DNA of 64,000 nucleotides, taken from NCBI GenBank assembly GCA_040221175.1, contig JAVJVK010000004.1, positions 480,268 through 544,267 on the forward strand. The letters run 5' to 3'. This DNA comes from Phycisphaerales bacterium. GTDB taxonomy: Bacteria > Planctomycetota > Phycisphaerae > Phycisphaerales > UBA1924. The notes under the pieces were generated by a model that was given only the letters and a program-made list of their open reading frames with translations, made no database searches and was not told the DNA's origin. A program made the translations under genes and the position numbers. Positions 27,925 to 53,123 of this stretch are shown piece after piece (position 1 is the first letter of the stretch; each line of letters starts with the position of its first letter).

Positions 27925-28064
27925 GGTCGGCTCCCTGACCCCTGTTCCATCGAGCCCGATACCCCGGGAAGACCGGTCTTCAGGCTGTGGTCGCGCGTGC
28001 CATCCGTGGTCACGCGCCTTTGAGTATACAGAATACCACGGTCGAACGCCAGCGTTTCAACAAT

Positions 28065-28349: not shown

Positions 28350-28452
28350 GTGCCACCTCCATCGGCCAAGAGCCATGGCGACTCAAGCCGATTTGCGCAC
28401 CAAGAAAGTTTTCAGCGCAAGAAGTGCGCAACGCCGCACCGAGCGAGCGTTG

Positions 28453-29373
28453 CTATCGGCCCCGCACGAGCCGTGCCAGCAGCCCGCGTACGGGGCCGCC
28501 CTTCCGATCAGAATCCGATCGATGCACGTCCATCTCGTCGGCCAGTCGTTCGACCACCTTGTTTAAGTGGCGCGTAGCGCTCGACTTGGGCGCCGCGATC
28601 GCAAGCGGACGGCGCACGCGAGAGCAGCGCTGCACGATCGGATCTTCCGGCACGAACCCAACCATCGGCAGCCCGCAACCAAGGAACTTGGCCGCCACTT
28701 CAGCCACACGCGCATGCGCCGCCTCCGCGTCGCCGGCGTCCTTGGCCCGATTGATCAACAGATACGGAATCCGTTCGCACGATACGCACCGCAGGCACTT
28801 CACCAGGGCGTACGCGTCGGCCAGCGAGGCCGGGTCGGGCGTGGCCACGACAATGGGCATGGAAGCCCGAGACAGTCCGTCGCGCACCGAAGCACCCAGC
28901 CCCGCCCCGTGATCGACCACCACCACGTCCATGGCCCTGGACAGCAGATCAACCGTTTGCGCGACCGCGGTTCGGGCATCGGTGCTCGAGGCATGCTGCA
29001 GCGGCCCAACCATGCCGGGCACCACGATCATGCCCGCCGGGCCACGCATCGACATCCGCCGAACGAGATCGACCGTCACCCGATCACCCTGCGCCACGCG
29101 GGCGACGGCCTCGGTCAGCCGCGCCGTCGGCCGGAGCCCGCACGCCAGGTCTACGTTGGCAAGCCCGAGGTCGGCATCGACGAGAGCCACGCGCAAGCCA
29201 CGCTTGGCAAAGGTGATAGCTGAAGAGACGGCAAGTGTCGTTTTTCCGACGCCGCCCTTGCCCGATGCGATGGCAACCACCGGCGCCCGGCGGACAGGCG
29301 CCTCCGACTGCACCCGGCGCTGTGCCATGCGCCGCAGGGCAGAAGCCTGATCGCAGGCGGCCGCGGGCGTCAC
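28453..29373 (-). CDS. flhG: FlhG/FleN-type MinD-like ATPase
   Basis: Partner of FlhF that limits flagellar number and placement. It has the deviant Walker A at residues 37-45 (SGKGGVGKTT), VALVDADLGLANVDLACGL, and the switch segment VVVDHGAGLGASV, where FlhG proteins usually have DTGAG. At 306 residues it fits the family. The first 30 residues include an FlhF-activation-type segment (DQASALRRMAQRR), equivalent to the DQAxxLR motif that stimulates FlhF GTPase. The ATG overlaps the flhF stop by four bases. Confidence 0.93.
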   Translation of the reverse strand: MTPAAACDQASALRRMAQRRVQSEAPVRRAPVVAIASGKGGVGKTTLAVSSAITFAKRGLRVALVDADLGLANVDLACGLRPTARLTEAVARVAQGDRVTVDLVRRMSMRGPAGMIVVPGMVGPLQHASSTDARTAVAQTVDLLSRAMDVVVVDHGAGLGASVRDGLSRASMPIVVATPDPASLADAYALVKCLRCVSCERIPYLLINRAKDAGDAEAAHARVAEVAAKFLGCGLPMVGFVPEDPIVQRCSRVRRPLAIAAPKSSATRHLNKVVERLADEMDVHRSDSDRKGGPVRGLLARLVRGR

Positions 29374-30851
29374 AGCCCGGCCCCGGTCAGTGCCACGTCG
29401 TTGCGCGGCTCCGCCTTCCGCGTGCCGCCCGCGCCCGCCAGCACGAGGCGCGCGAGCCGATCGGCCCGGCCTGGCTCGATGTGGTCGGGCACCTCCTGGC
29501 CAGTGGTCACGAAACTCAGCGGCAACCCCAGGGCATGCACCATGGAGATGACCATGCCCACGCCCTCGGCCTCGTCCAGCTTCGTGAAAAGCACCCGGTC
29601 CGGATTGGCCCGTGCGAAGCCGGCTGCCGCACTGCGAAGCGCCCCCGCGCCCGCCGTCGCCGACAGCACCAGGTGCGTTTCGTGGGGACGGGCGGCCTCC
29701 AGATACTCGGACAGCTCATCCACCCGCTGCCCATCGCGGGGCGAACGGCCCGCGGTATCGATCAGCACGACGTCGCAATCGCTCATCGCCCGGCAGGCCG
29801 AGGCCATCTCCGCTGGGCTCATCACCACCCGCAGGGGCACGCTGATGATGCTCGCGTAGGTCCGCAACTGCTCGACCGCCGCGATCCGGAAAGTGTCGGT
29901 GGTGATGAGCCCCACGCGTTGCCCACGCCGGAGCTTGTACGCAGCCGCGAGCTTTGCGATGGTGGTGGTCTTTCCCACGCCGGTGGGCCCCACCAGCGCA
30001 ATGGTCAGCGGCCCCTCTTCGGTTCGACCCCGGCCGGGCGTCGCGACTCGCACCATCTCCGCCAAGGCGCCCTGCACCGCCGGGCCGACCAGCGACGAAT
30101 CGCAGAGCTCCTCACGCGTCAGTTCCGAACGGACGCGAGACACCACCTCATCGGCCAGGTCGCGGTCCACCTCGGCTTCGACCATGCGCACGTACGCCTC
30201 GCTCAAGGCCTCGCCCAGGGCCGAGGCCGATACCGGCCCCGCCTGCTGGGTATGCAAGAGCCGCCCCAACATGTTGCGTAGCGACCGCAGCTCGTCCTCA
30301 ACCCCCAGTGAACCACGCGCCCCCGTGTTACCCGAGCTGCGCACCCGCATCCGTTCGGCCGACCGAGAGGGCGGAGCCTCGTCGGCCATGGTGGTCACCG
30401 AAGCAGGCGCGCTCGGCGTCGCCACCGGCTCGGGTTGCCGCTCGAGTTTCACCGACGCAGCAGGCTCGGGGGACGAAGCCGGTGCCGCCGACGTTGCGAG
30501 TTGCGTGTAGCGCTCGAGAATCTCCCGGCGCCGCTCTGCAGAGGTCGGATCGAGACGCTCGTTCGAGCCGCCGGCGTCCGGCTGAGGCTGTTGCGGGGCC
30601 CGTGCGGCCGAGGAAGGCCGGGGCTGGCTGGGCCGTTGGGCGGGCGTTCGAGCGTTCTGGCCGCGCTGGCGATCGCGAACCACCGACGCAGGCGACGCGG
30701 TCACCTCGACGACGGGCCGGCCACCAATGCCGAACAGCCCGCCGACCTTGTAGTTGCGCGTATGCAGAATGATCGCATCGCGACCCAGCTCTCGCTGGAC
30801 CGCGTCGATGGCGTCGGCCATCGACCGTGCGCGATAGGTGCGGATGCCCAT
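29370..30851 (-). CDS. flhF: Flagellar biosynthesis SRP-type GTPase FlhF
   Basis: Third SRP-family GTPase; sets the site of flagellum assembly. It has the B domain start MGIRTYRARSMADAIDAVQR, a long disordered Pro/Ala/Ser linker (about 55-165), an N domain, and a G domain with G1 at 288-296 (GPTGVGKTTT), TTDTFRIAAVEQL, DTAGRSPRDGQ and TKLDEAEGVG. Length 493. FlhF and FlhG together usually go with polar flagella. It lies downstream of flhA with a 125-base gap, the largest in this part of the cluster. Confidence 0.95.
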   Translation of the reverse strand: MGIRTYRARSMADAIDAVQRELGRDAIILHTRNYKVGGLFGIGGRPVVEVTASPASVVRDRQRGQNARTPAQRPSQPRPSSAARAPQQPQPDAGGSNERLDPTSAERRREILERYTQLATSAAPASSPEPAASVKLERQPEPVATPSAPASVTTMADEAPPSRSAERMRVRSSGNTGARGSLGVEDELRSLRNMLGRLLHTQQAGPVSASALGEALSEAYVRMVEAEVDRDLADEVVSRVRSELTREELCDSSLVGPAVQGALAEMVRVATPGRGRTEEGPLTIALVGPTGVGKTTTIAKLAAAYKLRRGQRVGLITTDTFRIAAVEQLRTYASIISVPLRVVMSPAEMASACRAMSDCDVVLIDTAGRSPRDGQRVDELSEYLEAARPHETHLVLSATAGAGALRSAAAGFARANPDRVLFTKLDEAEGVGMVISMVHALGLPLSFVTTGQEVPDHIEPGRADRLARLVLAGAGGTRKAEPRNDVALTGAGL

Positions 30852-30976: not shown

Positions 30977-33094
30977 CTAGCCCGCGTGCGCCATCGCCGC
31001 TTCGCCCGGCGGTCGCACCAGGCCCATGGCATTGAGCTCGATCTTCTGGTCCACCTCGTTGTACCCCAACACGGCAATGCCCGGCAGCCTCGGTTCCATG
31101 ATCTGGAACAGCACCGCCCGAACCGTGGGCGAGGCCAGCAGCACCGGCGGGTGCCCCGCATTCACCACCGCTTCAAGCGCCTTGGTGATCTCCTGGGCCA
31201 CGGCATTGCTCACGCCCGCGGGCATCGTCAGCGTCGTCGTCTCGGCCCCTCGATCAATATAGCTGCTGACCAGGTCTTCCATCGCCGGATCCACCGTTGC
31301 GCACGTCAGCACGAGCCGGCCGTCGCCCTCGTCCATGGCATACTGGTGGCAGATGGACCGCCGCAGACCATTCCGCACGTACTCGGTCAGCACGTCCACG
31401 TCCTTGGTCTTTCCGCCCCAATCGGCCAGGACCTCCAGGATCGTCTCCATGTCCCGGATCGGCACGCGTTCACGCAGCAGGTTCTGCAGCACGTGCTGAA
31501 GGTCGGCCAGCTTCACCGAGCCCGAGAGCGCTTCTTCCACCAGCTTGGGCGCACGCTCCTTCACGCCCTCGATCAGGTTGCCCACCTCCTCCCTGGTCAG
31601 CAACTCGCTGGCGTGGGCCTTGACCACCTCTGTCAGGTGCGTCGTCAAGACGCTGGCCGCGTCCACCACCGTGTAGTTCATCGACTCGGCCCGCATCCGC
31701 ATGTCGGTGGTGATCCACCACGCATCCAGCCCGAACGCCGGCTCCTTCGTGGGCTCGCCCTGCAGCTTCCCCGTGGCAATGCCCGGATCCATGGCCAGCA
31801 ACTGATCGGGCCGGGCCTCCCCGCGCGCCACGTCCGCCCCGCGGATCCGAACCCGGTAGTGCGTGGGCTGAAGCTGCAGGTTGTCCCGGATCCGCACCGG
31901 CGGCATGACGAACCCGCTGTCGAGCGCAAGTTGCCGCCGCACCGCCGAGATCCGTTCGAGCAAATCGCTCCCGTCGCCCGTGCCCACCAGCGAGACCAGC
32001 GACTGGCCGACCTCGAGTTCCAGCAGATCGACCTTGAGCAGGCTTTCGACCGCTGGCGGGGGCGGAGGCGGCGCGGGTGGCGGCGGAGGCGGCGGCCGCG
32101 TCGCACGCTTCATGGCGAAGGCGATGCCCCCCAGGCCCAGCGACGTCGCCAGAAGTGGTACGGCCGGCAGGCCCGTGAACGCAAGCACGCCCAGGAACAC
32201 CGATGTGATCGCCAAGCCCTTTGGCTGGCTGAACACCTGGCCGGTCAGTTCCTGGCCCAGTTCGCCCTTGTCCCCCGAGCGGGTCACGATGAGCGCCGCC
32301 GCGATCGCGATGATGAACGAAGGAATCTGGCTGGTCAGCCCATCGCCGATCGTCAGCCGGCTGAACGTCTCGGCCGTCTGCGAAGCGGGCCAGCCACGCT
32401 CGATGGTGCCCACAGCGAACCCGCCGGCGATGTTCACGCCCGTGATGACGATGCCCGCAATGGCGTCGCCGCGCACGAACTTGCTGGCGCCGTCCATGGC
32501 GCCGAAGAAGTCCGCCTCGCGCCGGATCTCCTCGCGGCGGTCTCGGGCTTCCTGCTCGCTGATGATCCCCGCGTTCAGGTCCGCGTCGATGGCCATCTGC
32601 TTGCCCGGCATCGCATCCAGCGTGAATCGCGCCGCAACCTCGCTGATGCGTGTGGCGCCCTTGGTGATGACCAGGAACTGGACCGCAACCAGGATCAGGA
32701 AGATCACGATGCCCACGAATAGCGAATCGCCCGCCACGAAGTTGCCGAACGCCTCGATCACCTGCCCCGCCACGTCCATCGCGTCCTCAGGCGACGTCGC
32801 ATCGGCGGTCAGGATGAGCCTGGTGGATGCGATGTTCAGGACAAGCCGGAACATCGTCACGCCAAGCAGCAAGGAAGGGAACACGCTGAACTTCAGCGGC
32901 CGATCCATGTACAGCACCGTCAGCAGGATGACCACCGACAGCGACACGTTCGTCGAGATCATCAGGTCGAGCAAGAAGCTCGGCAGCGGCACGATGAGCA
33001 CCGCCAGCAACGCCACGAACCCGATGGGCACGATGATGCCTCGCCACTTCGAGAGCGACTCAAGCCGAGCCAGGATGCCCTCGCCCACCGCCAT
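30977..33094 (-). CDS. flhA: Flagellar export gate protein FlhA
   Basis: Core of the flagellar type III export gate. The membrane part spans about residues 20-325 and includes the FHIPEP-type loop (SEVAARFTLDAMPGKQMAID, DADLNAG). A cytosolic domain from about 350 binds chaperones and substrates. Between them is a run of 13 prolines in 14 residues (334-347), much longer than in E. coli FlhA, which should make translation depend on EF-P. Length 705 is usual for the family. Its ATG overlaps the flhB stop by one base (TGATG). Confidence 0.96.
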   Translation of the reverse strand: MAVGEGILARLESLSKWRGIIVPIGFVALLAVLIVPLPSFLLDLMISTNVSLSVVILLTVLYMDRPLKFSVFPSLLLGVTMFRLVLNIASTRLILTADATSPEDAMDVAGQVIEAFGNFVAGDSLFVGIVIFLILVAVQFLVITKGATRISEVAARFTLDAMPGKQMAIDADLNAGIISEQEARDRREEIRREADFFGAMDGASKFVRGDAIAGIVITGVNIAGGFAVGTIERGWPASQTAETFSRLTIGDGLTSQIPSFIIAIAAALIVTRSGDKGELGQELTGQVFSQPKGLAITSVFLGVLAFTGLPAVPLLATSLGLGGIAFAMKRATRPPPPPPPAPPPPPPAVESLLKVDLLELEVGQSLVSLVGTGDGSDLLERISAVRRQLALDSGFVMPPVRIRDNLQLQPTHYRVRIRGADVARGEARPDQLLAMDPGIATGKLQGEPTKEPAFGLDAWWITTDMRMRAESMNYTVVDAASVLTTHLTEVVKAHASELLTREEVGNLIEGVKERAPKLVEEALSGSVKLADLQHVLQNLLRERVPIRDMETILEVLADWGGKTKDVDVLTEYVRNGLRRSICHQYAMDEGDGRLVLTCATVDPAMEDLVSSYIDRGAETTTLTMPAGVSNAVAQEITKALEAVVNAGHPPVLLASPTVRAVLFQIMEPRLPGIAVLGYNEVDQKIELNAMGLVRPPGEAAMAHAG

Positions 33095-34188
33095 CAGTCA
33101 CGCGCTCCCGCCGGGGCCGGCGCCCGATGGCTGCCATCAAGCCGGTACACGTAAGCGAGCACCTCGGCCACGGCCTCGTAGTGCTCGGGGCTGATCGTCT
33201 GCCCGACCTCCACCCCCCGGTACAGCGCACGCGCCAGGGGCGGCCGTTCCACCACGGGCACGCCGTTGGTCCGCGCAACCTCGCGAATCCGCAGCGCCAC
33301 ATAGTCGGCCCCTTTGGCCACGACCTTCGGCGCCGCCATCTCGTTCGCGTCGTACTTGATCGCCACAGAGAAGTGCGTCGGGTTGGTCACCACCACGTCG
33401 GCCCCGGGCACGTCACTCTGAACGCGCTGGAGGGCAATCTCCCGAGCGATGCGGCCGCGCCGCTGCTTCATCTCCGGATCGCCGTCCATCGACTTCTGCT
33501 CTTCCTTCACCTCCTGCTTGGTCATCTTGTTGTCGTGGCGGTGCTGCCACTTCTGATACTTCAAGTCAATCAGCCCGATGATCAGCAGCACCGCCAGCAT
33601 CCAGATCGCAAGCTCGATGATCGCCCGCAGGCTCATCACCACCGCCGCGTTGATGTCCAGCAGCGGCATGGCGCCCAACGCCGGCACCCAGCGAGCCACG
33701 ACGAATACCACGACCGCCACGACCAACACCAGCTTGGTGAGGTCCATCAACAGTTTGACGACGCCCTTTGGGCCGAAGATCCGCTTGGCGCCGCTTACCG
33801 GGTTCATCCGGTCGAGCTTCGGCTTGACCGCCTCGGGCGAGATTGCCCATCCCACCTGCACGAGCTGCGAGAACAACGCCACCACGAACATCACTGCCAT
33901 CGTTGGAACCAGGATCAGCCCGATACGTACGCCGATCCATCGCAGCGTGCGGTAGATGTCCTCGACCACCACCGCGTGGCCGGGCGCGCTGCCGGCCATC
34001 ACGTCACGCATCATCGCCGACATCAGGCCCGTCGCCATCAGGCCGAGCGCCGCGAGCAGCACCGCCGCCCCGGCCATCATGACGACGGCGCCGAAGTCCT
34101 GACTCTTGCCGACCTGGCCCTGCTCGCGGGTCTTGCGCAGCTTGTGCGCGGTTGGTTCTTCGGTCTTCTCGCCGGGATCGTCAGCCAT
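33094..34188 (-). CDS. flhB: Flagellar export switch protein FlhB
   Basis: Controls the change in export specificity from hook to filament. Four membrane helices lie in residues 30-210. The cytoplasmic domain carries the autocleavage motif NPTH at 269-272 (VVTNPTHFSVAIKYD), with cleavage expected between Asn and Pro. Further conserved segments are AKGADYVALRIREVA and NGVPVVERPPLARALY. Length 364. It overlaps fliR by eight bases. Its action partner FliK is encoded upstream in the same cluster. Confidence 0.96.
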   Translation of the reverse strand: MADDPGEKTEEPTAHKLRKTREQGQVGKSQDFGAVVMMAGAAVLLAALGLMATGLMSAMMRDVMAGSAPGHAVVVEDIYRTLRWIGVRIGLILVPTMAVMFVVALFSQLVQVGWAISPEAVKPKLDRMNPVSGAKRIFGPKGVVKLLMDLTKLVLVVAVVVFVVARWVPALGAMPLLDINAAVVMSLRAIIELAIWMLAVLLIIGLIDLKYQKWQHRHDNKMTKQEVKEEQKSMDGDPEMKQRRGRIAREIALQRVQSDVPGADVVVTNPTHFSVAIKYDANEMAAPKVVAKGADYVALRIREVARTNGVPVVERPPLARALYRGVEVGQTISPEHYEAVAEVLAYVYRLDGSHRAPAPAGARD

Positions 34189-34978
34189 CGCTCACCCCCA
34201 GCGATCGGGCCCACTCGTGGATCTCGGCAAAGCCATCGGCGATCGCGTCGCCCGCCACGTCCCCGATCGCATAGATCGAAACGGCAAGCACGCTCATGCC
34301 AAGGACGATCTGGATCGCAAATCCGATGGTCATGATGTTGATCTGCGGAATCGTCCGCATCAGCACGCCCATGGCCAGGCTCGCCAGGGTCGCCATCAAC
34401 AGCACGGGCATCGCAATCCGCAGCCCCACTACGAATGCCGCGTCCAGCAGCGTCACCAGTAACTGCGCCGGCGCCGCATCAATCCACGCCGTGCCGGGCG
34501 GCAGCGACGCGAACGTGTCCATGACCGCGACGACCATGTGCTCCAGCCCGCCGATCTGAATGAACAGCCCCAGGGCCATCAGATACAGCAACTGCCCCAC
34601 GACTTCCGACTGGGCGTCGAATTCGGGGTTGTACACCTGCGCGAGCGCGAGCCCGAGCTTGTAGCTGATCACGCTGCCAGCGATCTGCACCGCCACCAGG
34701 GGCATCGTCGCGAGCATGCCAATGGCAAGGCCGATCAGCACCTCACCAAACAGCACGACCGCGATCGTGCCCAGCTCCAGCGGTGGCGTCTCGATGCCCC
34801 CCTGCGCGACGGCCGGGTACAACGCGACCGTCAGCATCAGCAGCATCAGGATTCGAACCCGCCGCATCACCAACTGGCTGGCCAGAACCGGCGCGAATAG
34901 GAACAGCCCGCTCATGCGGGCCGCCACCATCCAGAACGGCAGCAAATGCTCCAGGATGCTCGCCACCGCCGGGTCCAA
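34181..34978 (-). CDS. fliR: Flagellar export gate protein FliR
   Basis: Membrane subunit of the FliPQR export core. Six hydrophobic segments are spread over 265 residues, with the family stretches LPFWMVAARMSGLFLFAP, FGEVLIGLAIGM, VYNPEFDAQSEVVGQLLYLM and VMRTIPQINIMTIGFAIQI. The only start near the conserved N-terminus is TTG at 34978, with a G-rich stretch just upstream; a GTG four codons on is the alternative. Overlap with flhB supports coupled translation. Confidence 0.93.
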   Translation of the reverse strand: MDPAVASILEHLLPFWMVAARMSGLFLFAPVLASQLVMRRVRILMLLMLTVALYPAVAQGGIETPPLELGTIAVVLFGEVLIGLAIGMLATMPLVAVQIAGSVISYKLGLALAQVYNPEFDAQSEVVGQLLYLMALGLFIQIGGLEHMVVAVMDTFASLPPGTAWIDAAPAQLLVTLLDAAFVVGLRIAMPVLLMATLASLAMGVLMRTIPQINIMTIGFAIQIVLGMSVLAVSIYAIGDVAGDAIADGFAEIHEWARSLGVSDG

Positions 34979-34993
34979 CGGCCACCATCCCCC

Positions 34994-35248
34994 TCAAAAC
35001 AGCTGGAACATCTCGACCGTGAATTCAACCAGCTGCATGACCATCCACGGCAACAGCAACAACGCCACGACGAGCATGCCCAGGATCTTCGGCACAAACG
35101 AGAGCGTCTGGTCTTGGATCGACGTCAGCGACTGGAACAGGCTGACCACCAGGCCAATCAGCACGCCAACCACCAGCACCGGCCCGCCCACGCGCAGCAC
35201 GAGCAGCAACACGTCCCGAACCAGTTCCACAAGCCAGTCGCCACCCAT
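34994..35248 (-). CDS. fliQ: Flagellar export gate protein FliQ
   Basis: An 84-residue subunit of the FliPQR core with two membrane helices (about 12-38 and 50-74) and the family signature GVLIGLVVSLFQSLTSIQDQTLSFVPK between them. Size matches FliQ (89 in E. coli). It lies between fliP and fliR with short gaps, the conserved order. Confidence 0.95.
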   Translation of the reverse strand: MGGDWLVELVRDVLLLVLRVGGPVLVVGVLIGLVVSLFQSLTSIQDQTLSFVPKILGMLVVALLLLPWMVMQLVEFTVEMFQLF

Positions 35249-35258
35249 GCCAACACCC

Positions 35259-36260
35259 CTAGACGCCCGGCAGCCAGTTGAGAGCGCCCACCAGTGGCGC
35301 CGCCAGCACCACGCCCTCGCCCGCCACGCGAGACACCTGCTCGCTCAGCCGCTCGATCTGCCCCTCCAGTACGAAGCTCTCCAATAGCGAACCGGCAAGC
35401 AACTGCCAGCCGTCGGCCATCACGAACAGCAGAAGCTTGAACGGCAGGCTGATGAGTACCGGCGGCAGCATCATCATGCTCATCGAGATCAGCACGCTGG
35501 CGATCACCATGTCGATCACAAGGAACGGCAGGTAGATGCGAAAACCCATCAGGAAGGCGACCTTCAGTTCGCTCAGCATGTACGCCGGCACCAGCTCGGC
35601 CATGCCCACGTCCGCCCGCGTCAGCTTGCTCGGGTCGCTGACGTCATAGCCGCGATACTCCATGATCGTCAGCAGGCTCGACCAATTGCCCGTCGCCTCG
35701 ATCTGGTCGAACATGAAGTCGCGAAGCGGCCGCGCCCCCGCCTCCCACATCTGCTCATAGTCCGTGATCTCCCCCTGCTCGTAGGGCACGATCGCCTCGT
35801 CATAGATCCGCCCGATCGTCGGCGTCATGATGAACAGCGTCAGGAACAGGCTCAGCGCCAGGATCACCTGCCCTGGCGGCACTGTCTGCGTGCCCATCGC
35901 CTGCTTGAGCAACCCAAGCACGATGATGATCCGCACGAACGACGTGGTCATCAGCATGATCGAAGGCACCAGCGTGATCACCGTGAGCACCAGCATGATG
36001 CTCACCGCCGTGCTGATGCCCGGCTTGCCGCTTTCGCCTTCGGCGGGCAACGCCTCGGCCGCCGCGCCCAGCACCGACAGCGGATTGATGCCCCCGTCAC
36101 GCCCTTCGAGCGAAGCGGCCAGTTCCTGAGCGACGTCCGGCGCGGCGGGCTGCGACGCCGAGAAATCCAGCGGCGGCCCAACCACGCCCTGGGCCAGCGC
36201 GCCACAGGCAGCCAGCGCCACCGCCGCGAGCATGATCCACACCGACGACCTCACGCCCAC
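35259..36260 (-). CDS. fliP: Flagellar export gate protein FliP
   Basis: Forms the central export pore with FliQ and FliR. The membrane core starts near residue 85 (SIMLMLTVITLVPSIMLMTT) and contains FVRIIIVLGLLKQAMGTQTV, PPGQVILALSLFLTLF and FLMGFRIYLPFLVIDMVIAS, ending in MMLPPVLISLPFKLLLFVMA. At 333 residues it is longer than E. coli FliP (245). The extra part is a signal-peptide-like start plus a 60-residue linker. It begins with GTG, overlapping fliO by 10 bases. Confidence 0.95.
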   Translation of the reverse strand: MGVRSSVWIMLAAVALAACGALAQGVVGPPLDFSASQPAAPDVAQELAASLEGRDGGINPLSVLGAAAEALPAEGESGKPGISTAVSIMLVLTVITLVPSIMLMTTSFVRIIIVLGLLKQAMGTQTVPPGQVILALSLFLTLFIMTPTIGRIYDEAIVPYEQGEITDYEQMWEAGARPLRDFMFDQIEATGNWSSLLTIMEYRGYDVSDPSKLTRADVGMAELVPAYMLSELKVAFLMGFRIYLPFLVIDMVIASVLISMSMMMLPPVLISLPFKLLLFVMADGWQLLAGSLLESFVLEGQIERLSEQVSRVAGEGVVLAAPLVGALNWLPGV

Positions 36261-36955
36261 ACCCCCCGGCCCTTGGGAAGGGGCTCACCCCGCGGGCCGA
36301 CCTCGATGATCTCGCCGCGCTCCACGCCGTCGCCCATGGCGTCCTGGCCCTGGAAACGCTCGAGCGCCTGCCTGAATCGAGCCGAAACGCTCTCGCTCGT
36401 CTCGTCGCGCGTCTGTCGCAAGATCGCCGCGACCTCGCTGGGATCGTCGAACTGAGCCAGCGTGGTGAAGGCGCCACCCTTGGCCGCCAGGCTCTGGCTG
36501 AGCAGGAGTACCCGACGGTCGATCCGAAGCAGCACGAGCACTTGCCCCCGGCCGACCGGATACCGCGCCAACACCTCGAGAACACCACTGGGCGCCCGTC
36601 CCCCCGGCCCAAGCATCGCCGCGACCGAGCCCGTCCGCCGAGACACGAATCGCGCCACCGCGGCCAGCACGAGGATAAGTCCAATGACCATCGCCACCGA
36701 TGCCAGCGAACGCGTCCAGCTGCCCGCGGACTTGGCAGAGCCATCGCCCTGCCGCGGGATCCCATCGGGACGAGCCATCAAGGGAATCTCGGCCTCGCTC
36801 GGCCGCCCCATCGCCTCAGTGGCCGCGGGGGCCTCGGGCTGAGCGACCTCGGCCGCTGGCGCAGTCCCCAGCGGGGGGCCAACCTGGCCATGGGCCACCG
36901 GCGTCGCCACCGCGAACGCCGCCCAGACCATCCATACCGCCCGCGGATTTGCCAT
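36251..36955 (-). CDS. fliO: Flagellar protein FliO
   Basis: Assembly factor that helps FliP form its ring. The 234-residue protein has an apparent signal peptide (AVWMVWAAFAVATPVAHG), an Ala/Pro-rich external linker, one membrane helix at about 85-104 (SLASVAMVIGLILVLAAVAR) and a cytosolic FliO domain (VLEVLARYPVGRGQVLVLLR, then DRRVLLLSQS). FliO is poorly conserved; the call rests on this layout and on its place before fliP. Confidence 0.87.
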   Translation of the reverse strand: MANPRAVWMVWAAFAVATPVAHGQVGPPLGTAPAAEVAQPEAPAATEAMGRPSEAEIPLMARPDGIPRQGDGSAKSAGSWTRSLASVAMVIGLILVLAAVARFVSRRTGSVAAMLGPGGRAPSGVLEVLARYPVGRGQVLVLLRIDRRVLLLSQSLAAKGGAFTTLAQFDDPSEVAAILRQTRDETSESVSARFRQALERFQGQDAMGDGVERGEIIEVGPRGEPLPKGRGVWA

Positions 36956-37045: not shown

Positions 37046-37663
37046 CTAGACGGTCGTCTCGTCTGCCACCTCTTCCCCAGAGTCGATGATCTCGTTTACG
37101 CGGATGCAGAAGTTGTCGTTCAGCACCAGCACCTCGCCACGCGCCACCAGGCGATCGTTGACGTACACGTCCAGCGGGTCGCCGGCCAGCTTGTCCAACT
37201 CGACGACCGCCCCGGAGTTCAACCGCAGCACGTCCTCGACGAGCATGCGTGTCCGCCCCAACTCGATGCGCACGTCGAGTTGCACGTCGGCCAGCATGTC
37301 CAGCCCGTGCTTGGCGCCGCTGACCGCAGACAGGTCAAAGTCAGGCAACTCGAGCTTGGATCCCTTGCCCGAGCCCTGCTGGGCGGCCTTCAACGCCGCC
37401 TGGACCACCGAGTCGGCCACGGTCTCGCCACCATCGCCAGGCTGTTCACCGGCCTTATTCCCGATAGCCGCATCCGCCTCGGCCTGGATGCTCGAAAGGG
37501 CTTCCTTGGCCGCCTTCAGCGCTTCGGAGGCATCATCGTCGTCGGACGCAGGCCCACCAGCCTCGCCCGCCGGCCGGTCGACATCCTCGCCGTCACCAGC
37601 CTCGCCCGGCCGCGCATCTTGTGGGGTCTGATCGTCTTGTTCTTCGGGGCGCTCTTCGGGCAT
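37046..37663 (-). CDS. fliN: Flagellar motor switch protein FliN
   Basis: C-ring component. The C-terminal SpoA domain (about 120-195) has LADVQLDVRIELGRTRMLVE, DVLRLNSGAVVELDKLAGDP and NDRLVARGEVLVLNDNFCIR, followed by the usual VNEII. The first 115 residues are acidic and probably disordered; E. coli FliN is only 137 long. I start at ATG 37663 with AAGGTGA upstream; a longer frame begins inside a region with no coding signal. No FliM precedes it (see findings). Confidence 0.94.
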   Translation of the reverse strand: MPEERPEEQDDQTPQDARPGEAGDGEDVDRPAGEAGGPASDDDDASEALKAAKEALSSIQAEADAAIGNKAGEQPGDGGETVADSVVQAALKAAQQGSGKGSKLELPDFDLSAVSGAKHGLDMLADVQLDVRIELGRTRMLVEDVLRLNSGAVVELDKLAGDPLDVYVNDRLVARGEVLVLNDNFCIRVNEIIDSGEEVADETTV

Positions 37664-37821
37664 CCTGCTCACCTTCGTGCGCGTGTCACGACCACGCCGG
37701 CGCATGCCGGCACGAAAAGCCGGGCTCCGCCGGCTCCCGAGCAACATCGGAGCCCGGGCCCGCTCGTCCGCAGCTTTTGCGTTCTGGCCAGACCCAACGC
37801 GCAGATACTGCGCACCCGGCT

Positions 37822-38352
37822 TCAGTTCCGCGGGAAGCCCCGCAGCTTGGCGATCACCAGGCGCTCGACACGAGGTAAGCCATCCACGTCGTTGCCGAAC
37901 ACGTCATTGATGAGTGCCGTCAACTGGCGGGATCCGGTGCGGAAGTCCGGCTCGCGCAGCTCCGTCAGCTTGGCCCGGCGGAAGATCTGGGTAATCCCTT
38001 CCTGGATCTCCGCGGCACGCTGCTCGAGTTGCTTCTGCACGTACTCCTGATTCTTCCGCCGGACCTTCAGGTAGATCTCCGCCTCCCAGATCCACACCTG
38101 GTTGCTGGTCATGTTCTGGTACTGCTCGTCTGTCAGCAACACCTCGACCAGTGCTTCGGGGTCGTCTTCCTCGCTCACGATCTCCGCTGCCGCGTCCTTG
38201 GGCCCCCCGGACATCATCGTGATGAACATGAACACGCCCACACCCTCGACCGCCATGATCGCCAGGATCACGGCCAGAAGCTTGGGCGAGAGCCCACGCT
38301 TGCCCTCGGGCTTCTCGGCGTTGTCGGTGTCCTTGGGTGACTCGTCGGCCAT
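37822..38352 (-). CDS. fliL: Flagellar stator-associated protein FliL
   Basis: Inner-membrane protein that surrounds and supports the stator. It has a short cytosolic tail, one helix at about 22-45 (SPKLLAVILAIMAVEGVGVF) and a periplasmic stomatin-like domain (EAEIYLKVRRKNQEYVQKQL), ending in a helix that precedes ERLVIAKLRGF. Length 176 is usual (E. coli 154). It follows motB with 27 bases between, and a 158-base gap separates it from fliN where fliM would be expected. Confidence 0.9.
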   Translation of the reverse strand: MADESPKDTDNAEKPEGKRGLSPKLLAVILAIMAVEGVGVFMFITMMSGGPKDAAAEIVSEEDDPEALVEVLLTDEQYQNMTSNQVWIWEAEIYLKVRRKNQEYVQKQLEQRAAEIQEGITQIFRRAKLTELREPDFRTGSRQLTALINDVFGNDVDGLPRVERLVIAKLRGFPRN

Positions 38353-38379: not shown

Positions 38380-39126
38380 CTACGGCCTTCCCGTCCAATT
38401 GGGATCCGGATGCGTCTCGTCGGGGTTGATCTCCGTACGGATCACCTGCACGCGCCGATTCGATGCCGCCGCGGCTCCCGGTCCACGGGCAGCCGCCACC
38501 GGTTCGGCATCGGCCTTTGCCTCCAGTTCCATGAGCCGCGGATCGAGCCCCACCTCGCTCACCAGGTAGTCCATCACCGCCTTGGCCCTGCGATAGGAAA
38601 GATCGTAAAAATCCAACCCCGAAATGCGATCCTCGGCCCCCCACGCGTGGCCTCGAATCTCGATCTTCACGCGATGCCCACGCAGCGCCGGCCCCACTTC
38701 CTCGCGCAGCTGCCGCTGCACGCGGGGGCTCAGCTCGAACGACCCCTCATCAAATGTCAGGCTCGCGCCCACCGTGAACTGCAAGCCCTCGTTGATGACG
38801 TTCGTGCTCTCGTTGCGGCCCGCGATCGAATCGGTCGTGGTTTCGGCCGAAATGAACGGCTTCTCGGACGATTCGGAGTTGTCGGTGTCCAGGCTGTCGA
38901 CGGTCGAGAACGGAATGTCTTCGACCCGGATCTTGCCGATGCCGCCCTGGTAGCCGAAGGCCTCCTGGATGCTGCGAACGACGTCCTGGTAGTCGCGCTC
39001 CTGCTTCAACTCGCTGAAGGCCGCCAGCAGGATGAAGAAGCACAGCAGAAGCGACATCAGGTCGCCGTACGTCACGACCCACTCGGGCACGCCCTGGGGC
39101 GGCGGCTTCTTCCGCTTCTTGGCCAT
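38380..39126 (-). CDS. motB: Flagellar stator protein MotB
   Basis: Anchors the stator to peptidoglycan. A basic N-terminus is followed by the helix VTYGDLMSLLLCFFILLAAF with the proton-accepting Asp of the YGD motif. The plug/linker region follows, then an OmpA-like peptidoglycan-binding domain (VKIEIRGHAWGAEDRISGLD, YRRAKAVMDYLVSEVGLDP, SNRRVQV). Length 248 versus 308 in E. coli. It is three bases downstream of motA. Proton versus sodium coupling cannot be told from this alone. Confidence 0.94.
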   Translation of the reverse strand: MAKKRKKPPPQGVPEWVVTYGDLMSLLLCFFILLAAFSELKQERDYQDVVRSIQEAFGYQGGIGKIRVEDIPFSTVDSLDTDNSESSEKPFISAETTTDSIAGRNESTNVINEGLQFTVGASLTFDEGSFELSPRVQRQLREEVGPALRGHRVKIEIRGHAWGAEDRISGLDFYDLSYRRAKAVMDYLVSEVGLDPRLMELEAKADAEPVAAARGPGAAAASNRRVQVIRTEINPDETHPDPNWTGRP

Positions 39127-39129: not shown

Positions 39130-39915
39130 TCAGGCCGCCTCACGGGCCGCCGTGAACGCATCGCGTTGCGCCGGCGGCAGGAACGTCAGCAGCTTGCTCT
39201 CCACCACGCGCGGGTTGTCGCCGCTCTGGATCGACATCACGCCCGTCACGATGATCGTCTTGACCAGCATTTCCTCGGCGTCCTTGGCAGCGAGCTTGTC
39301 CGCAATCGGCGAGGCAAACAGGTTGGCGATCAAGGCGCCATACAACGTCGTGATCAGCGCCACCGCCATGCCCGGCCCGATCTTGCTCGGGTCGTCCATG
39401 CTCTTGAGCATGAAGATCAGGCCCAGCAGCGTCCCGATCATTCCGAACGCAGGCGCATACTTCGCGAGCGCGTCCAGCACCGCCTTGCCGCTCTGGTGAC
39501 GCTCGGTCAGCGCATCAAGCTCGGTATCGAGAATGGTCTGGATCAGTTCCGGATCCGTGCCGTCCACGGCCATCTTCACGCCGCGCACGATGAACGGGTC
39601 CTTCATCTCGCTCATCAGGTTCTCGAGGCTCAGGATGCCTTCCCGGCGAGCCACCTCGGCATACTTGACCAGTTCGGCGATCGTCTCGGCAGGGTCCCCC
39701 GCCTCGTTGAAGAACGACTTCTTCACCACGCCCACCAGGCCCGTGATGCGCGCCAAAGGAAACGAGATCACCACCGCGCCGGCCGCACCGATGATCACCA
39801 CGAACACCGACGTCGGGTCCACCAGCGCCATGACGTTGCCGCCACCGCCGATCACCACCGCAATACCGATTGCGGCGACGGCCAAGACGAGCCCAACGAC
39901 GGTTCCGATATCCAT
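39130..39915 (-). CDS. motA: Flagellar stator protein MotA
   Basis: Torque-generating stator subunit with four membrane helices. Starting at ATG 39915 the protein is 261 residues, beginning DIGTVVGLVLAVAAIGIAVV. Family segments include PTSVFVVIIGAAGAVVISFP, the cytoplasmic loop with RREGILSLENLMSEMKDPFI, and the last two helices KYAPAFGMIGTLLGLIFMLK and GPGMAVALITTLYGALIANL. This is the shorter, PomA-like type. The longer upstream frame reads through an unlikely Arg/Pro stretch. Confidence 0.94.
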   Translation of the reverse strand: MDIGTVVGLVLAVAAIGIAVVIGGGGNVMALVDPTSVFVVIIGAAGAVVISFPLARITGLVGVVKKSFFNEAGDPAETIAELVKYAEVARREGILSLENLMSEMKDPFIVRGVKMAVDGTDPELIQTILDTELDALTERHQSGKAVLDALAKYAPAFGMIGTLLGLIFMLKSMDDPSKIGPGMAVALITTLYGALIANLFASPIADKLAAKDAEEMLVKTIIVTGVMSIQSGDNPRVVESKLLTFLPPAQRDAFTAAREAA

Positions 39916-40032
39916 GTGACGCTCGCTCCAACGGGGCACATCGATCGGCGGCACGAGCCGCACGCATACCCCATCTTCATCGACGCGCCTTATCGACCGC
40001 TTGAGCCCAAAAACGGACCAACGGCCAATTCC

Positions 40033-45304: not shown

Positions 45305-46660
45305 TCACCCTCCCTCGCCCAGCCGCTCGGAGATCTCACGCCCCAGCGCAAGCAAACGCGCGCACGCGTCCTCGAACCCGATCGCATCACCGGTCGACTG
45401 GCGCAGCAAGCCATCGATCGCGGGCATGAACTCGATCGCCGCGTCGGTCTCCTTGCTCGACCCCTTGGCGTACGCGCCGATCCGGATCAGATCCTCGGAC
45501 TTTGAATAGGCCGCCAGCAGCCGGACCACCGACTCACGTGCCCTCGCATGCGCATCGTCCATGAGCCTGCTCGCCAGCCGACTGACCGACCCAAGCACAT
45601 CGACGGCCGGATAGTGCCCACGCGTGGCCAACTCGCGGGACAGCAATACGTGGCCATCGAGCACGCCGCGCACCGCATCCGACACCGGCTCGTTAAAGTC
45701 GTCGCCCTCGACCAGCACCGTATACAGGCCCGTGATCGAGCCCACGCGTCCGCCGCCCAGCTCGACCGCGCCCGCGCGCTCCAGCATCGCGGCCATGTTC
45801 GCAAATACGCCTGGCGTGTAGCCCCGGCTGGTCGGCGGCTCGCCCGCGGCCAGACCGATCTGCCGCAGGGCGTGCGCGTACCGGGTCAGCGAATCCATCA
45901 CCAGCAGCACGCTGTGCCCCAGATCCCGAAAGTGCTCGGCAATGGCGCAGGCCGACCGCGCCGCCCGCGCGCGCACCAGCGGCGATTCGTCGGCCGTCGC
46001 GCACACCACGATGCTCCGCGCGAGCCCGCGCTCTCCCAACGCGTCTTCCACGAACTCGCGCACCTCGCGGCCACGCTCGCCGATCATGGCAACCACGACG
46101 ATTTCCGCGTCGGTCTGCCTGGTAATCTGCCCGAGCAGCGTGCTCTTGCCAACCCCCGGGCCCGCGAAGATCCCCATGCGTTGCCCGCGACCGATCGGCG
46201 TCATCAGATCGATCGAACGCACCCCCGTACGCAGCGGCAGCTTGATCGGCTCGCGCGCCATCGGACCCACACGCATCGGATCCAGCGGCGCCCACCCGTG
46301 CTCACGCGGTGCCGGCAAGCCGTCCAGCGGCCGACCCATCGCGTCCACCACGCGCCCCAGAAGGCCCGGACCGACTGCCATGCTGGCCCACGCCTGCAAC
46401 CCCTCGACGACGTCGCCAGAGCGGATGCCCTCGCCACGCCCCATCAGCATCACGATCGCGCGCTCATCGGCCAGGCCCACGATCTCGCCGAGCTGCTCCC
46501 CACCGCCGGCCAGCGAGGACCGCACCCGCACGACCGATCCCACCGGCATTGCCAGACCGCTCACGAGCAGCGTCGAGCCGCGCAGCGCCGAAACACGCCC
46601 CGCGACGCCCATCGGGATCGTCGCATCGAGCGCCACGCCAGCCCGCTCCAGCACGCTCAT
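45305..46660 (-). CDS. fliI: Flagellum-specific ATPase FliI
   Basis: Hexameric ATPase that prepares substrates for export, related to F1 beta. Walker A is at residues 167-174 (AGPGVGKSTLLGQI). Other marks are GERGREVREFVEDALGE, VLLVMDSLTRYAHALRQIGL (Walker B) and AAGEPPTSRGYTPGVFANMA. Length 451 agrees with E. coli FliI (457). The ATG overlaps the fliH stop as ATGA. Confidence 0.96.
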   Translation of the reverse strand: MSVLERAGVALDATIPMGVAGRVSALRGSTLLVSGLAMPVGSVVRVRSSLAGGGEQLGEIVGLADERAIVMLMGRGEGIRSGDVVEGLQAWASMAVGPGLLGRVVDAMGRPLDGLPAPREHGWAPLDPMRVGPMAREPIKLPLRTGVRSIDLMTPIGRGQRMGIFAGPGVGKSTLLGQITRQTDAEIVVVAMIGERGREVREFVEDALGERGLARSIVVCATADESPLVRARAARSACAIAEHFRDLGHSVLLVMDSLTRYAHALRQIGLAAGEPPTSRGYTPGVFANMAAMLERAGAVELGGGRVGSITGLYTVLVEGDDFNEPVSDAVRGVLDGHVLLSRELATRGHYPAVDVLGSVSRLASRLMDDAHARARESVVRLLAAYSKSEDLIRIGAYAKGSSKETDAAIEFMPAIDGLLRQSTGDAIGFEDACARLLALGREISERLGEGG

Positions 46661-47361
46661 GCCTCTTCGCCCGGCAGCAGCGCTTCCACGATCCGCTCGA
46701 GCTGGGTCTCAATCGTCCCATCGATGCGCGACGCATCGGCCTCGACGATCACCGAACCGTGCGACAGCGACTCATCCTCCACCACCGAGGAACTCGCATT
46801 CTCGGCCAGCAGGCTCGCCAGCTCGGGCATCGCCTCCCGCACGGCCTGCGCGTCGACCGGCGAGACGCGTACCCGCACCCGGCTCGGCCGCATCGCCAGT
46901 TCGAGCGCCTCGCGAAGCTGGAGGACCGCAGCGTCCTCATCCACGTCGATCGTTCGTTTGGCAACCCGCTCGCCCAGCCGGACGGCAAGCGCTACGACGC
47001 CCCGCTCGCCCTCGGTATGCAACGCATCGCGCCGCGCCTGAAAGTCCGTCAATGCGCTCCGCCAGGCGGCTTGGAGCGCCTTGATCGCGTCAGCTTCCGC
47101 CGCCAGGGCCTCGGCACGCCCTTGCTCCATGCCGGCCTGCCGACCTTCGGCAATGCCCTTTTCCAGGCCCTCGGCATGCCCGCGTTGCTCGGCCCCTTCA
47201 AGAAGCCGATCGCGCTCGGCCCGGGCTTCGGCCACGATCCGATCGGCCTCCTGCCGTGCACGCTCCATCATCGCCTCGCCCTGGCGGGCCAGGTCGCCCA
47301 GGTCGAGCACCACCGCGTCGCGCGCCAGCGATGCCGCGTCGGCTCGCCGGATCATCGGCAT
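46657..47361 (-). CDS. fliH: Flagellar assembly protein FliH
   Basis: Stator-like regulator of FliI. The 234-residue chain has the Gly/Ala-rich helical stretch typical of FliH (HAEGLEKGIAEGRQAGMEQG, with repeated GxxxG spacing) at about 61-85 and a C-terminal V-ATPase-E-like domain (VALAVRLGERVAKRTIDVDE, then GSVIVEADASRIDGTIETQL). It overlaps fliI by four bases and follows fliG by 22 bases. Confidence 0.92.
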   Translation of the reverse strand: MPMIRRADAASLARDAVVLDLGDLARQGEAMMERARQEADRIVAEARAERDRLLEGAEQRGHAEGLEKGIAEGRQAGMEQGRAEALAAEADAIKALQAAWRSALTDFQARRDALHTEGERGVVALAVRLGERVAKRTIDVDEDAAVLQLREALELAMRPSRVRVRVSPVDAQAVREAMPELASLLAENASSSVVEDESLSHGSVIVEADASRIDGTIETQLERIVEALLPGEEA

Positions 47362-47383: not shown

Positions 47384-48421
47384 TCACACCACCAGCTCGG
47401 TGTCGCCGCGACCCTGGATCATCACGTCGCCCGACTCTTCCAGCCTGCGCACGATATCGACGATGCGCTGCTGCGCAGTTTCCACGTCGCTGATGCGCAC
47501 CGGGCCCATGAACTCCATGTCTTCCTTGATCAGCTCTGCTGCCCGGGCCGACATGTTGCTGAAGATCTTCTGCTGCAACTCCTCCGAGGCGGTCTTGAGC
47601 GCCAGGCCAAGCTCGTCGTTGTCGACCTCCTTCAGCACGGCCTGGATGCCCTTGTCGTTCACCAGCAGGATGTCCTCGAATACGAACATCAGGCGCCGGA
47701 TCTGCTCGACCAGGTCCGGGTCCTCCGACTCGAGGCCCTCCATGATCGCCTTCTCCGTCGAGCGATCCGCCAGGTTGAGCATCTCGGCCACCGTGGGGAC
47801 ACCGCCGCTTTTCTCCATGTTTTGCATCAACATGTTGCTCAGGCGACTCTCCAGCCCCCGCTCGACCTCGCGGATCACCTCCGGGTTGGTCTGCTCCATG
47901 TTCGCGATGCGCTTGATCACCTCGATTTGCTTCTGCATCGGCAGCCCGACCAGGATCTCCGCCGCCTTGTGATGGCTCAGGTGGCACAGGATCAACGCGA
48001 TCGTCTGCGGGTGCTCATCCTGGATAAACGTCAGCAGGTTCTCGCTCTCGGCGCGTTGCAGGAAGCTGAACGGCGTCTTCTGCACTTGCGTCTGGATCTG
48101 CGACAGAACCTTGTTGGCCTGCTCCGGATCCAGTGAGTTCAGCAGCACCTCCTTCGCAAAGTCGAGGTTGCCTTCGCCGGCAAACTCGTTCGCCACGGTC
48201 AGGTCGTAGAACTCCTTGACCACGGCTTCCTGCAACTTGCTGGGCACCCGCCCCAGGCTGGCCAGTTCCCTGGTCACTTCCTCAACCGTCTCGGGCGACA
48301 TCGCCTTCAGCACCACCGCCGCCCGCTCGGTGCCAACTGCCAGCAACAGGATGGCCGACTTGGTCGCGCCATCCAGATCAATGGGGTTCGTCGGCAGCTT
48401 CTCGTGCGGCTTGCGAGGCAC
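47384..48421 (-). CDS. fliG: Flagellar motor switch protein FliG
   Basis: Rotor protein that contacts the stator. It begins with GTG. Segments in order: ATKSAILLLAVGTERAAVVL, FLQRAESENLLTFIQDEHPQ (with TIALILCHL), the EHPQT motif, GVPTVAEMLNLADRSTEKAI (middle domain and hinge) and the torque helix region RRLMFVFEDILLVNDKGIQA, then LKTASEELQQKIFSNMS. Length 345 compares with 331 in E. coli. It lies 24 bases after fliF. Confidence 0.96.
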   Translation of the reverse strand: MPRKPHEKLPTNPIDLDGATKSAILLLAVGTERAAVVLKAMSPETVEEVTRELASLGRVPSKLQEAVVKEFYDLTVANEFAGEGNLDFAKEVLLNSLDPEQANKVLSQIQTQVQKTPFSFLQRAESENLLTFIQDEHPQTIALILCHLSHHKAAEILVGLPMQKQIEVIKRIANMEQTNPEVIREVERGLESRLSNMLMQNMEKSGGVPTVAEMLNLADRSTEKAIMEGLESEDPDLVEQIRRLMFVFEDILLVNDKGIQAVLKEVDNDELGLALKTASEELQQKIFSNMSARAAELIKEDMEFMGPVRISDVETAQQRIVDIVRRLEESGDVMIQGRGDTELVV

Positions 48422-48445: not shown

Positions 48446-50155
48446 TCACTCGTGGCTCGCGGCCACCCAACTCTGTAGCAATGACGCCGCCGTCTCGGGC
48501 GAAGACGCGACAAGCTCACCAACCTGATCGAGCATCTTCCCAGCCCGGACCTGTTCCTCATCCAACTCGATGCCCGACATCGGAATGTCGCCCTCGTCGG
48601 CCTCGCCATACAGGTCGCCATCGGCCTGCAGCGCCGGGGGTACACCCACCAACTCTTCGGCCGTCGGCAGTTCGGTCTTCTTGGTTGCCTTGCGCACCAG
48701 CATTGCCATCATCGCCACGCTCACGAGCGCCAGTACGCCCAGCACGGCCTTGTCGATCAATCCACCGCCAGCCAGGCCCATGAACCCGCCGCCAGCGCCT
48801 CCAGTGACGCCGCCGCCAAGCCCAAATCCTCCGCCGACCTCGCCGCGCACGAGCGTGACATCGTTGAGCATGGACACCGTCACCGCTACGTCCGCCGGAT
48901 CGCCCTCAACCACGTTCCCCAGCACCAATTGGATGCGCGATTCGAGATCGCTCCGAACCAGGCTGAATCGATCGGCGATCTCCTCGGCCGTCGGCGGCGT
49001 GGGCTCTTCGCCCTCCGCGGGCGGCAGTTGGTCCTGCTCGAGCAACCGCAGCACGTAGCTCCGCGGCACGCCCAGCATGACCGATACGCCCTGAAGGTCT
49101 CCGCCGGGGTCTTCCAGGTTCTCCGTCGTGCTGGGGAATCGATTCTCGAACGCTGAATCCTCGGTCGTCTCGGTAAAGGTCGACCCCGTCGACGAGCCCT
49201 GGCTCACCGACAAGGGCTCGTTCGAGCGCGTTCCCGCCACGCCGCCCTGGGTTGCGTTCTGCTGCACGCGTTCGGTGCGGCTCTCGCTGAGCAGGCCCGA
49301 CAGCGGCTTCTGATACGTCTGGCTCTGCCGGGTCCGGCGTGCGTTATCCACCCGTGCCAGCACCGCCACCGACATGCCGGGGATGTCGCGCAGGAAGCCG
49401 GTGATCTTGTCCTCCAGCATCCGCTCGATCTGAAACGTCTGCTCGAGGGCCTGCCGGGCGGTCAGGCGGCGGTCGTCGTAGGACTGATACGCCAGCCCAC
49501 TGACGCCATCGACCACCTTTACCGCCGTCGGCTCCAGCCCGGCGACCGAGCCCGCAATGCCTTCGGCGATGGCGTCCACCGTGTCCTGCGGAAGTTCACC
49601 CCCCACAGGCCACACGAACACCGAAGCCGAAGGGGAACGCGACGCCCGGCCGAGACCTGCCTGCTCGGGCATGTCGATGGCGACCTGGGCGTGCCGCAAC
49701 GATTGCCAGTACGACAGGATCTCCGAGAGATACTGCGAGTAGATCGCCCAGTACTGCTGGTGGTTGTCCTGGCGGGAGTTCATCCAGCTGCGCGACTCGA
49801 TCAATCGCTCGATGAACGAAGCCGTCTGCGGCGGAACGATCCGCTGCTCCATGAGCAGGCCCTGCACCCGCGCCACGTAGTCCGAACGAACCAGGATCTC
49901 GCCCTGAGCGTTCGTTTCCGCCTGAATGCCCTGCCGCTCCAGAGCAGCGATCGCCCGAGTCCGCTCGGCCGCGTCGCTCACGATCGCCGCCGGCACCGCC
50001 GCCGTCCTCGATGCATACTGGGAAACCAGGAAGAATGCCATCGCCACGATGATGGCCACCGAGCCCACCAACAGCTTCTCGATCGTGCCGAGGCGGCCCA
50101 GATAGCCCGCAAGATGGCGCAGCCGCTCCTTGGGTTGTTTGCTGGCCGTCTCCAC
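48446..50155 (-). CDS. fliF: Flagellar MS-ring protein FliF
   Basis: Forms the membrane ring on which the flagellum is built. Starting at GTG 50155 (GGGAG seven bases upstream) it has 569 residues. First membrane helix at about 22-45 (KLLVGSVAIIVAMAFFLVSQ), ring-building motifs (ALERQGIQAETNAQGEILVR, QASFIERLI-like region), a flexible periplasmic loop with Ser/Thr/Gln, a second helix at about 478-500 (LIDKAVLGVLALVSVAMMAM) and the acidic FliG-binding tail. The longer upstream frame has no start signal. Confidence 0.94.
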   Translation of the reverse strand: METASKQPKERLRHLAGYLGRLGTIEKLLVGSVAIIVAMAFFLVSQYASRTAAVPAAIVSDAAERTRAIAALERQGIQAETNAQGEILVRSDYVARVQGLLMEQRIVPPQTASFIERLIESRSWMNSRQDNHQQYWAIYSQYLSEILSYWQSLRHAQVAIDMPEQAGLGRASRSPSASVFVWPVGGELPQDTVDAIAEGIAGSVAGLEPTAVKVVDGVSGLAYQSYDDRRLTARQALEQTFQIERMLEDKITGFLRDIPGMSVAVLARVDNARRTRQSQTYQKPLSGLLSESRTERVQQNATQGGVAGTRSNEPLSVSQGSSTGSTFTETTEDSAFENRFPSTTENLEDPGGDLQGVSVMLGVPRSYVLRLLEQDQLPPAEGEEPTPPTAEEIADRFSLVRSDLESRIQLVLGNVVEGDPADVAVTVSMLNDVTLVRGEVGGGFGLGGGVTGGAGGGFMGLAGGGLIDKAVLGVLALVSVAMMAMLVRKATKKTELPTAEELVGVPPALQADGDLYGEADEGDIPMSGIELDEEQVRAGKMLDQVGELVASSPETAASLLQSWVAASHE

Positions 50156-50307
50156 GCCGTCACTCCCTGGCGCGTTCCACGCGCACATCGCGCGCCGGCC
50201 TGGCGCCGGAGCGTCCACTCGTGGTCGGCTTGTCGGGGGCCCGGGCTTGAATACCCGGCATCAGCGGCGCACAACCCGCGCCAACACGCGCAGTTCCTGC
50301 GCGTCGG

Positions 50308-51600: not shown

Positions 51601-53123
<1,523 letters not shown>

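Follow-up and report, generated by a model that had tools for sequence, protein, structure and literature searches.

The genome analysed here very probably encodes a complete flagellar switch, made up of fliG, fliN, a fliM gene that was relocated anciently and is now found on contig C13, and a third SpoA-domain gene, fliN2, whose products would give a C-ring with three SpoA proteins. The evidence comes from gene presence, location and co-occurrence, from domain content and from tree grouping. The window, meaning the whole stretch of DNA analysed (64,000 nucleotides, G000:C4:480268-544267), belongs to a genome of 3.44 Mb in 20 contigs that is listed as 100% complete.

The flagellar cluster of the window and fliM on contig C13

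A long flagellar cluster occupies the minus strand of the window, on which the order motA, motB, fliL, fliN, fliO, fliP, fliQ, fliR, flhB and flhA was observed. The product of motA (39130..39963) matches MotA_ExbB (PF01618, 102.8 bits) and that of motB (38380..39126) matches MotB_plug (PF13677) and OmpA. The next gene (37822..38352), whose product gave no Pfam match at E<=0.001, was named fliL by position, and tblastn relatives lie in the same place at 9 of 20 class loci and at 64 of the 80 named loci described below. It is followed by fliN (37046..37663), encoding a 205-residue protein with an acidic tail and a C-terminal SpoA domain, by fliO (36251..36955; PF04347, 29.2 bits against a cut-off of 22), by fliP (35259..36260; PF00813, E=6.5e-70 at G000:C4:515652-516257) and by frames at 30977..35248 which, from their position, we take to be the export gate genes fliQ, fliR, flhB and flhA and which tblastn places in the same order in relatives. 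Also on the minus strand are fliH (46657..47361; PF02108, 70.2 bits), encoding the export ATPase regulator, fliG (47384..48421; FliG_N, FliG_M and FliG_C), encoding the C-ring partner of FliM, and fliF (48446..50218; PF01514, 81.1 bits), encoding the MS ring protein. Downstream of flhA, an SRP54-type GTPase, a MinD/ParA-type ATPase and a sigma-70 family factor are encoded in a row (window 27061-30851), presumably FlhF-, FlhG- and FliA-like respectively. Beside the basal-body genes (window 51601-56763) there are genes for a sigma-54 activator with a receiver domain, a histidine kinase, a FlgN-like chaperone and a protein with a protein kinase domain, a gene content that suggests sigma-54 control of the flagellar cluster.

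The order of the canonical operon is fliL-fliM-fliN-fliO-fliP, and the window cluster has the same gene order and the same kinds of protein. Many bacteria carry fliM between fliL and fliN; here the intergenic gap on the minus strand (37664..37821) comprises 158 bases holding no gene and nothing fliM-like. The observation of the first-pass annotation that fliM is absent from the motA-motB-fliL-fliN-fliO run was thus borne out, as was its statement that the usual order is otherwise kept, with motA-motB-fliL followed by fliN through flhA. In E. coli and Salmonella, fliM and fliN usually lie in one operon, according to the available text of PMC6946799. To this genome were added 80 named fliN loci, the nearest relatives in a scan with planctomycete FliN patterns and a query led by the window FliN, whose titles name planctomycetes except for two stating only "bacterium". 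No fliM match at E<=1e-3 was present around fliN at any of these loci (within 3 kb on either side, or to the contig end where that was nearer), indicating that the gap is no quirk of one assembly. Each locus has a single SpoA frame on the fliN strand, and at the 64 with a fliL match the end of that match lies 282-947 nt from the SpoA start.

When the whole genome was searched with the FliM family, one match was observed (PF02154, E=3e-65), on contig C13. The gene (G000:C13:137531-138544, minus strand) is one open frame of 337 residues without stops, and its product scores over the family cut-offs for both PF02154 (218.9 bits) and PF01052 (59.9 bits) and, across residues 2-330, for TIGR01397 (293.3 bits, cut-off 219.6). 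Its N-terminus, MDVLDQNEVDALL, is of the CheY-binding peptide type, which in FliM takes the form LSQxEIDALL, and a looser version of this pattern is present in 69/69 FliM frames with the landmark RPERV[SG]K (from 53 of 59 genomes). The FliG-binding loop of FliM carries the motif GGXG. In the C13 protein (L005) the loop is LGGTSQDL and reads GGTS in place of GGXG, which is a departure at a single motif in a FliM that reaches the family scores. With the loop taken by pattern as the first GG after the landmark in 53 genomes, GGXG was read in 0/39 class genomes, where GGSN, GGSS, GGTN and the like occur, and in 4/14 genomes outside the class, as GGDG or GGNG. The gene is flanked on one side by frames that we take to be nusA- and infB-like and on the other by a divergent, presumably dsbD-like gene, all named from their sequences. 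The first-pass annotation had proposed that fliM might have moved and had called for a whole-genome search for FliM and SpoA proteins, in which a normal fliM elsewhere would reduce the matter to relocation. The search found such a gene, complete and canonical, so the missing fliM reflects relocation and no loss; true loss of FliM is ruled out by the PF02154 and TIGR01397 scores.

The third SpoA protein and the composition of the C-ring

A SpoA family search of the genome, taken up to E=10, identified three places, namely the window FliN, the C-terminus of the C13 FliM and a third gene on C4, and a three-SpoA protein set is encoded in this one genome. The third gene, fliN2 (G000:C4:1200114-1200380), lies behind acpP-fabF and encodes 88 residues comprising a SpoA domain only, which scores 58.2 against the NCBIfam FliN model, below the cut-off of 84.05. 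Two partly overlapping samples of genomes, 120 from the class and 156 from the phylum, were drawn evenly and without regard to phylogeny. In the class sample a SpoA match was present in 89 genomes and a FliP match in 91; FliM was matched at E<=0.01 in 71, with 63 over the family cut-off and 61 above 200 bits. FliM is termed strong here when it scores above 200 bits in the class (these 61 genomes) or above 190 bits outside it (21 genomes). At E<=0.01, exactly three SpoA places were found in 61/61 strong-FliM class genomes and three or more in 21/21 outside the class.

The presence of a third SpoA place alongside strong FliM in every one of the 61 class genomes argues against a non-motor role for fliN2, in which a SpoA protein would have been co-opted for some other function near fatty-acid synthesis, a reading that we consider unlikely. 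In favour of it, fliN2 lies behind acpP-fabF in the window's genome, as the third SpoA gene does at 10 of 20 loci examined (from five families), and at those 20 loci no flagellar query that was used gave a match next to that gene. However, the acpP-fabF neighbourhood was not shown at the other 10 loci, a related protein in family f47 is encoded next to fliM, and a FliM-type peptide scored over threshold (see below) in 3/26 third-protein tails.

In a SpoA tree of 93 domains, built from 80 columns for the 93 rows and including no named FliY, FliM, FliN and the third protein each form one group, with support of 79/94, 100/99 and 76/92 respectively. Three f47 proteins of CheX-like plus SpoA architecture join the third-protein group (95/89). 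The f47 gene for this FliY-like protein adjoins fliM (L098, L099 and L100, in G205, G142 and G184), an arrangement that is possibly a relic of a fliM-fliY pair. In two f47 proteins tested, the CheX-like domain matched Pfam CheX (PF13690) weakly, at E=3e-4 and 0.058, both below cut-off; residues 74-315 of one f47 protein matched an NCBIfam FliY model (E=4.4e-17, below cut-off), and a match to the CheC/FliN fusion structure 4hyn extended over 170 residues (E=0.018). The third proteins of f41 and f69 carry an N-domain of about 150 residues with no match to any Pfam family or solved chain. A CheC/CheX fold was sought in it and not shown, hhalign against the f47 domain giving a probability of 0.15% and Pfam and structure searches being blank; the proposed FliY origin of FliN2 accordingly rests on f47. 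Because FliN2 itself has no CheC/CheX-type domain before SpoA, we do not assign it to FliY but regard it as probably related to the SpoA half of that protein. We infer from these domain sequences that the third protein corresponds to that half, and it may have arisen through loss of the CheC-like domain of a FliY.

Leptospira and the Epsilonproteobacteria encode FliN and FliY besides FliM, and the FliY of H. pylori binds FliM and FliN through its C-terminal part, as described in the available portions of PMC6946799 and PMC8809382. The planctomycete set, known from genes, resembles those of Campylobacter jejuni, Helicobacter pylori and Leptospira as portrayed there in that each genome encodes, in addition to FliG, three switch proteins with a SpoA domain; in those systems FliY and FliN can make up distinct parts of the structure. 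The third protein is a bare SpoA domain in the window's genome, whereas the FliY described for H. pylori and C. jejuni has a further N-terminal part. By analogy, FliN2 would act in the role of the SpoA half of the Helicobacter and Campylobacter FliY, and the planctomycete switch would be of the known three-SpoA kind, with its gene placement, the reduced third subunit found here and the CheY docks on FliN in many lineages as the new elements. The products of these genes are thus predicted to assemble into one ring in which the FliM middle domain would bind FliG, the FliM N-terminal peptide would bind a CheY-like regulator and the SpoA domains of FliM, FliN and FliN2 would form the lower rim. 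The alternative raised in the first-pass annotation, a C-ring built differently, falls in the sense intended, since FliM is present and its replacement by FliN is not needed; it survives in that the parts list does differ, through a third SpoA protein encoded far away after acpP-fabF. In a genome announcement for a Phycisphaerales MAG of family M1A02 from Lake Untersee, fliM and fliN are named as present, and the accessible part of that paper makes no mention of the location of fliM or of a third SpoA gene (PMC9119077). This paper apart, the titles and abstract openings among the matches listed in a literature search that covered few subscription papers contained nothing on planctomycete C-ring composition or fliM placement.

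Placement of fliM across the Planctomycetota

The comparison of the locus among relatives, also suggested by the first-pass annotation, placed fliM away from fliN in 61/61 strong-FliM class genomes, on different contigs in 52 and on the same contig at least 46 kb apart in nine. Outside the class the two genes are unlinked in 21/21 strong-FliM genomes, with fliM on another contig in 15 and far off on the same contig in six; in draft genomes, separate contigs are no proof of distance between the two genes. When 20 fliN regions of the 61 class genomes were examined, fliP was found after fliN in all 20 and a fliO match between them in 17, with no fliM match in any. Conversely, window queries for fliL, fliP or motA gave no match at E<=1e-10 around fliM in any of 59 genomes, mostly over 1.5-5 kb per side. 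Unlike in the canonical operon, fliM here sits unlinked and adjoins non-flagellar genes. In C. jejuni it is fliN that lies apart, from fliM-fliY, according to the available text of PMC6946799 and PMC8809382, whereas here fliM itself is away from the flagellar genes of the cluster.

Two neighbours of fliM recur among the 59 genomes. The proA gene lies upstream of fliM in the same direction in 13, with gaps of 17-213 nt in 12 and of 952 nt in one, and ProA identity was over NCBIfam cut-offs in 6/6 tested; this site is present in class families f6 and f13 and in f41, f46, f69 and f72 outside the class. A divergent dsbD adjoins fliM in 15 genomes, every one of them belonging to the window's order, which contributes 18 of the 59; neither gene was near fliM in the remaining 31 within the DNA examined. 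Both proA and dsbD are taken for mere landing sites. That fliM was separated before these classes split is best supported by the proA-fliM site being shared between the class and genomes outside it, and from these gene neighbourhoods the separation looks like an old, widespread planctomycete trait. On this interpretation, by the time the classes with this switch diverged fliM would already have been outside the motA-motB-fliL-fliN-fliO run, having departed from it or never been part of it; it may then have settled downstream of proA and, in the window's order, have relocated once more to a site beside dsbD.

An orphan fliM amid housekeeping genes might also be the product of recent horizontal transfer or belong to a second flagellar system. 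We regard this as very improbable, as each of the 61 class genomes has one FliM and one FliP match over cut-off, a sub-clade unites the SpoA domains of the order's FliM proteins (100/97) and the proA-fliM site occurs both in the class and outside it.

A second switch type was observed in the same phylum, with a divergent FliM adjoining FliN and usually two SpoA genes. Among the 28 SpoA-bearing class genomes without strong FliM, two SpoA places were found in 22, one in one, three in one and four in four. At 7/7 loci from genomes without strong FliM, in and outside the class (L131-L137), FliM-like and FliN frames are adjacent, indicating that unlinked fliM is tied to one switch type and not to the whole phylum. 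Several f14 genomes have two FliP matches. FliP is present in G005 and G088 with no SpoA match at E<=0.01, perhaps due to degenerate flagella or assembly gaps.

CheY-binding peptides and control of the switch

The SpoA domain of the window FliN starts at about residue 119-123 of 205, following an acidic low-complexity extension of about 118-122 residues. This is close to the 115 of the first-pass annotation, and Pfam agrees with that annotation in finding no CheC/FliM middle domain in the protein, the sole match being FliMN_C. The scores are 104.9 bits for TIGR02480 (cut-off 84.05) and 83.2 bits for PF01052 (233-aa form). A plausible ribosome site (AAGGTGAG) precedes the start at 37663, and an alternative upstream ATG at 37747 would give a FliN of 233 residues.

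A scoring matrix was derived from 24 distinct FliM N-terminal peptides and used to scan 84 FliN tails, 61 from the class and 23 from outside it, together with 26 tails of third proteins, of which some were too short to score. Each tail was read from the first potential start codon no more than 220 residues from SpoA and may include non-coding residues. Of the 23 outside-class tails, 21 are from strong-FliM genomes and two (G247 and G175) are not, and one FliN adjoining FliM (L196, G146) was omitted from the count. The threshold was the score reached by 0.1% of shuffled tails, the shuffles pooling FliN and third-protein tails. A FliM-type CheY-binding peptide was detected in 31/84 FliN tails where shuffles predict about 0.1, and two copies were present in 15 tails and three in one; the 31 are not independent, as five come from one genus (g128). 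By group, the peptide is borne by 0/19 tails in the window's order, 12/42 in the rest of the class and 19/23 outside the class. As a control, 4/224 other protein frames passed the same score (81,224 residues, against 9,469 of FliN tail). In the named set, which consists of the loci most like a query led by the window FliN, the motif was found in 6/80 FliN tails. In the class there was no sign of a link between the motif and chemotaxis, CheW being present in 8/12 motif-bearing genomes and in 41/61 overall.

No CheY-binding motif over threshold was found in the window FliN tail, its best score being -2.0. A helix in this tail, DASEALKAAKEAL, aligns under the motif of some relatives, which makes a decayed CheY-binding motif possible as judged from the alignment. 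The suggestion of the first-pass annotation that an extended FliN tail binds CheY is therefore plausible for relatives and unsupported in this genome. Full or degenerate EIDAL (CheY-binding) motifs have been noted sporadically in FliN and FliY, in the available text of PMC6946799. As in that survey, many planctomycete FliN tails bear FliM-type peptides; in contrast to its sporadic cases, there are planctomycete tails with two or three copies, and the window FliN is without any. A literature search on the letters EIDALL gave unrelated papers among the matches listed. That FliM is truly absent and replaced by a long-tailed FliN binding FliG or CheY directly would fit a cluster without fliM and a long acidic FliN tail but is scarcely credible given the canonical FliM on C13, the lack of a CheC/FliM-like Pfam domain in FliN and a tail without a motif over threshold.

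Neither the CheW domain (PF01584, also part of CheA) nor the MCP signalling domain (PF00015) was matched at E<=0.001 in the whole genome, which keeps a large flagellar gene set and the CheY-binding peptide of FliM despite undetected CheA/CheW and MCPs. Its congeners G003 and G021 are also without a CheW match. CheW was found in 63/120 class genomes and, among the 61 with strong FliM, in 41 with 20 lacking it, where absence denotes no match at E<=0.001 and some of the genomes concerned are drafts, the window's genome and its two congeners being listed as 99-100% complete. The Lake Untersee MAG is reported, in the available text of PMC9119077, to carry cheA and cheW; neither was detected in the genome of the window. 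Receiver-domain matches number 22 in this genome. One stand-alone CheY-like receiver of 127 residues (MKILLIDDSKTMREII...) is encoded at L286:1498-1878 (G000:C19 about 51270-51650) and is a candidate partner for the FliM peptide.

A fuller history can be put forward tentatively, and we hold it to be possible though doubtful. The ancestral C-ring may have been heterotypic, with FliM, FliN and a FliY-derived third SpoA protein, the tandem CheY docks of FliN serving as a multivalent CheY sensor. These docks would then have been lost in the window's order, where the third protein would also have shrunk to little or nothing more than its SpoA domain. Lineages like the window's genome would have lost CheA/CheW and MCPs and kept the FliM dock, a combination that, within this heterotypic-ring history, points to a motor that a CheY-like regulator switches or brakes independently of CheA.

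The gene on C13 removes a false absence, as the cluster by itself would suggest that these planctomycetes are without FliM. The tandem CheY docks on FliN, and an undetected chemotaxis core beside a conserved CheY-binding FliM, are leads on how the switch is controlled. A third SpoA protein goes with strong FliM in 82/82 genomes counted, which provides a defined switch parts list for this lineage and allows the need of some motors for a second subunit of FliN type to be tested beyond the Epsilonproteobacteria.
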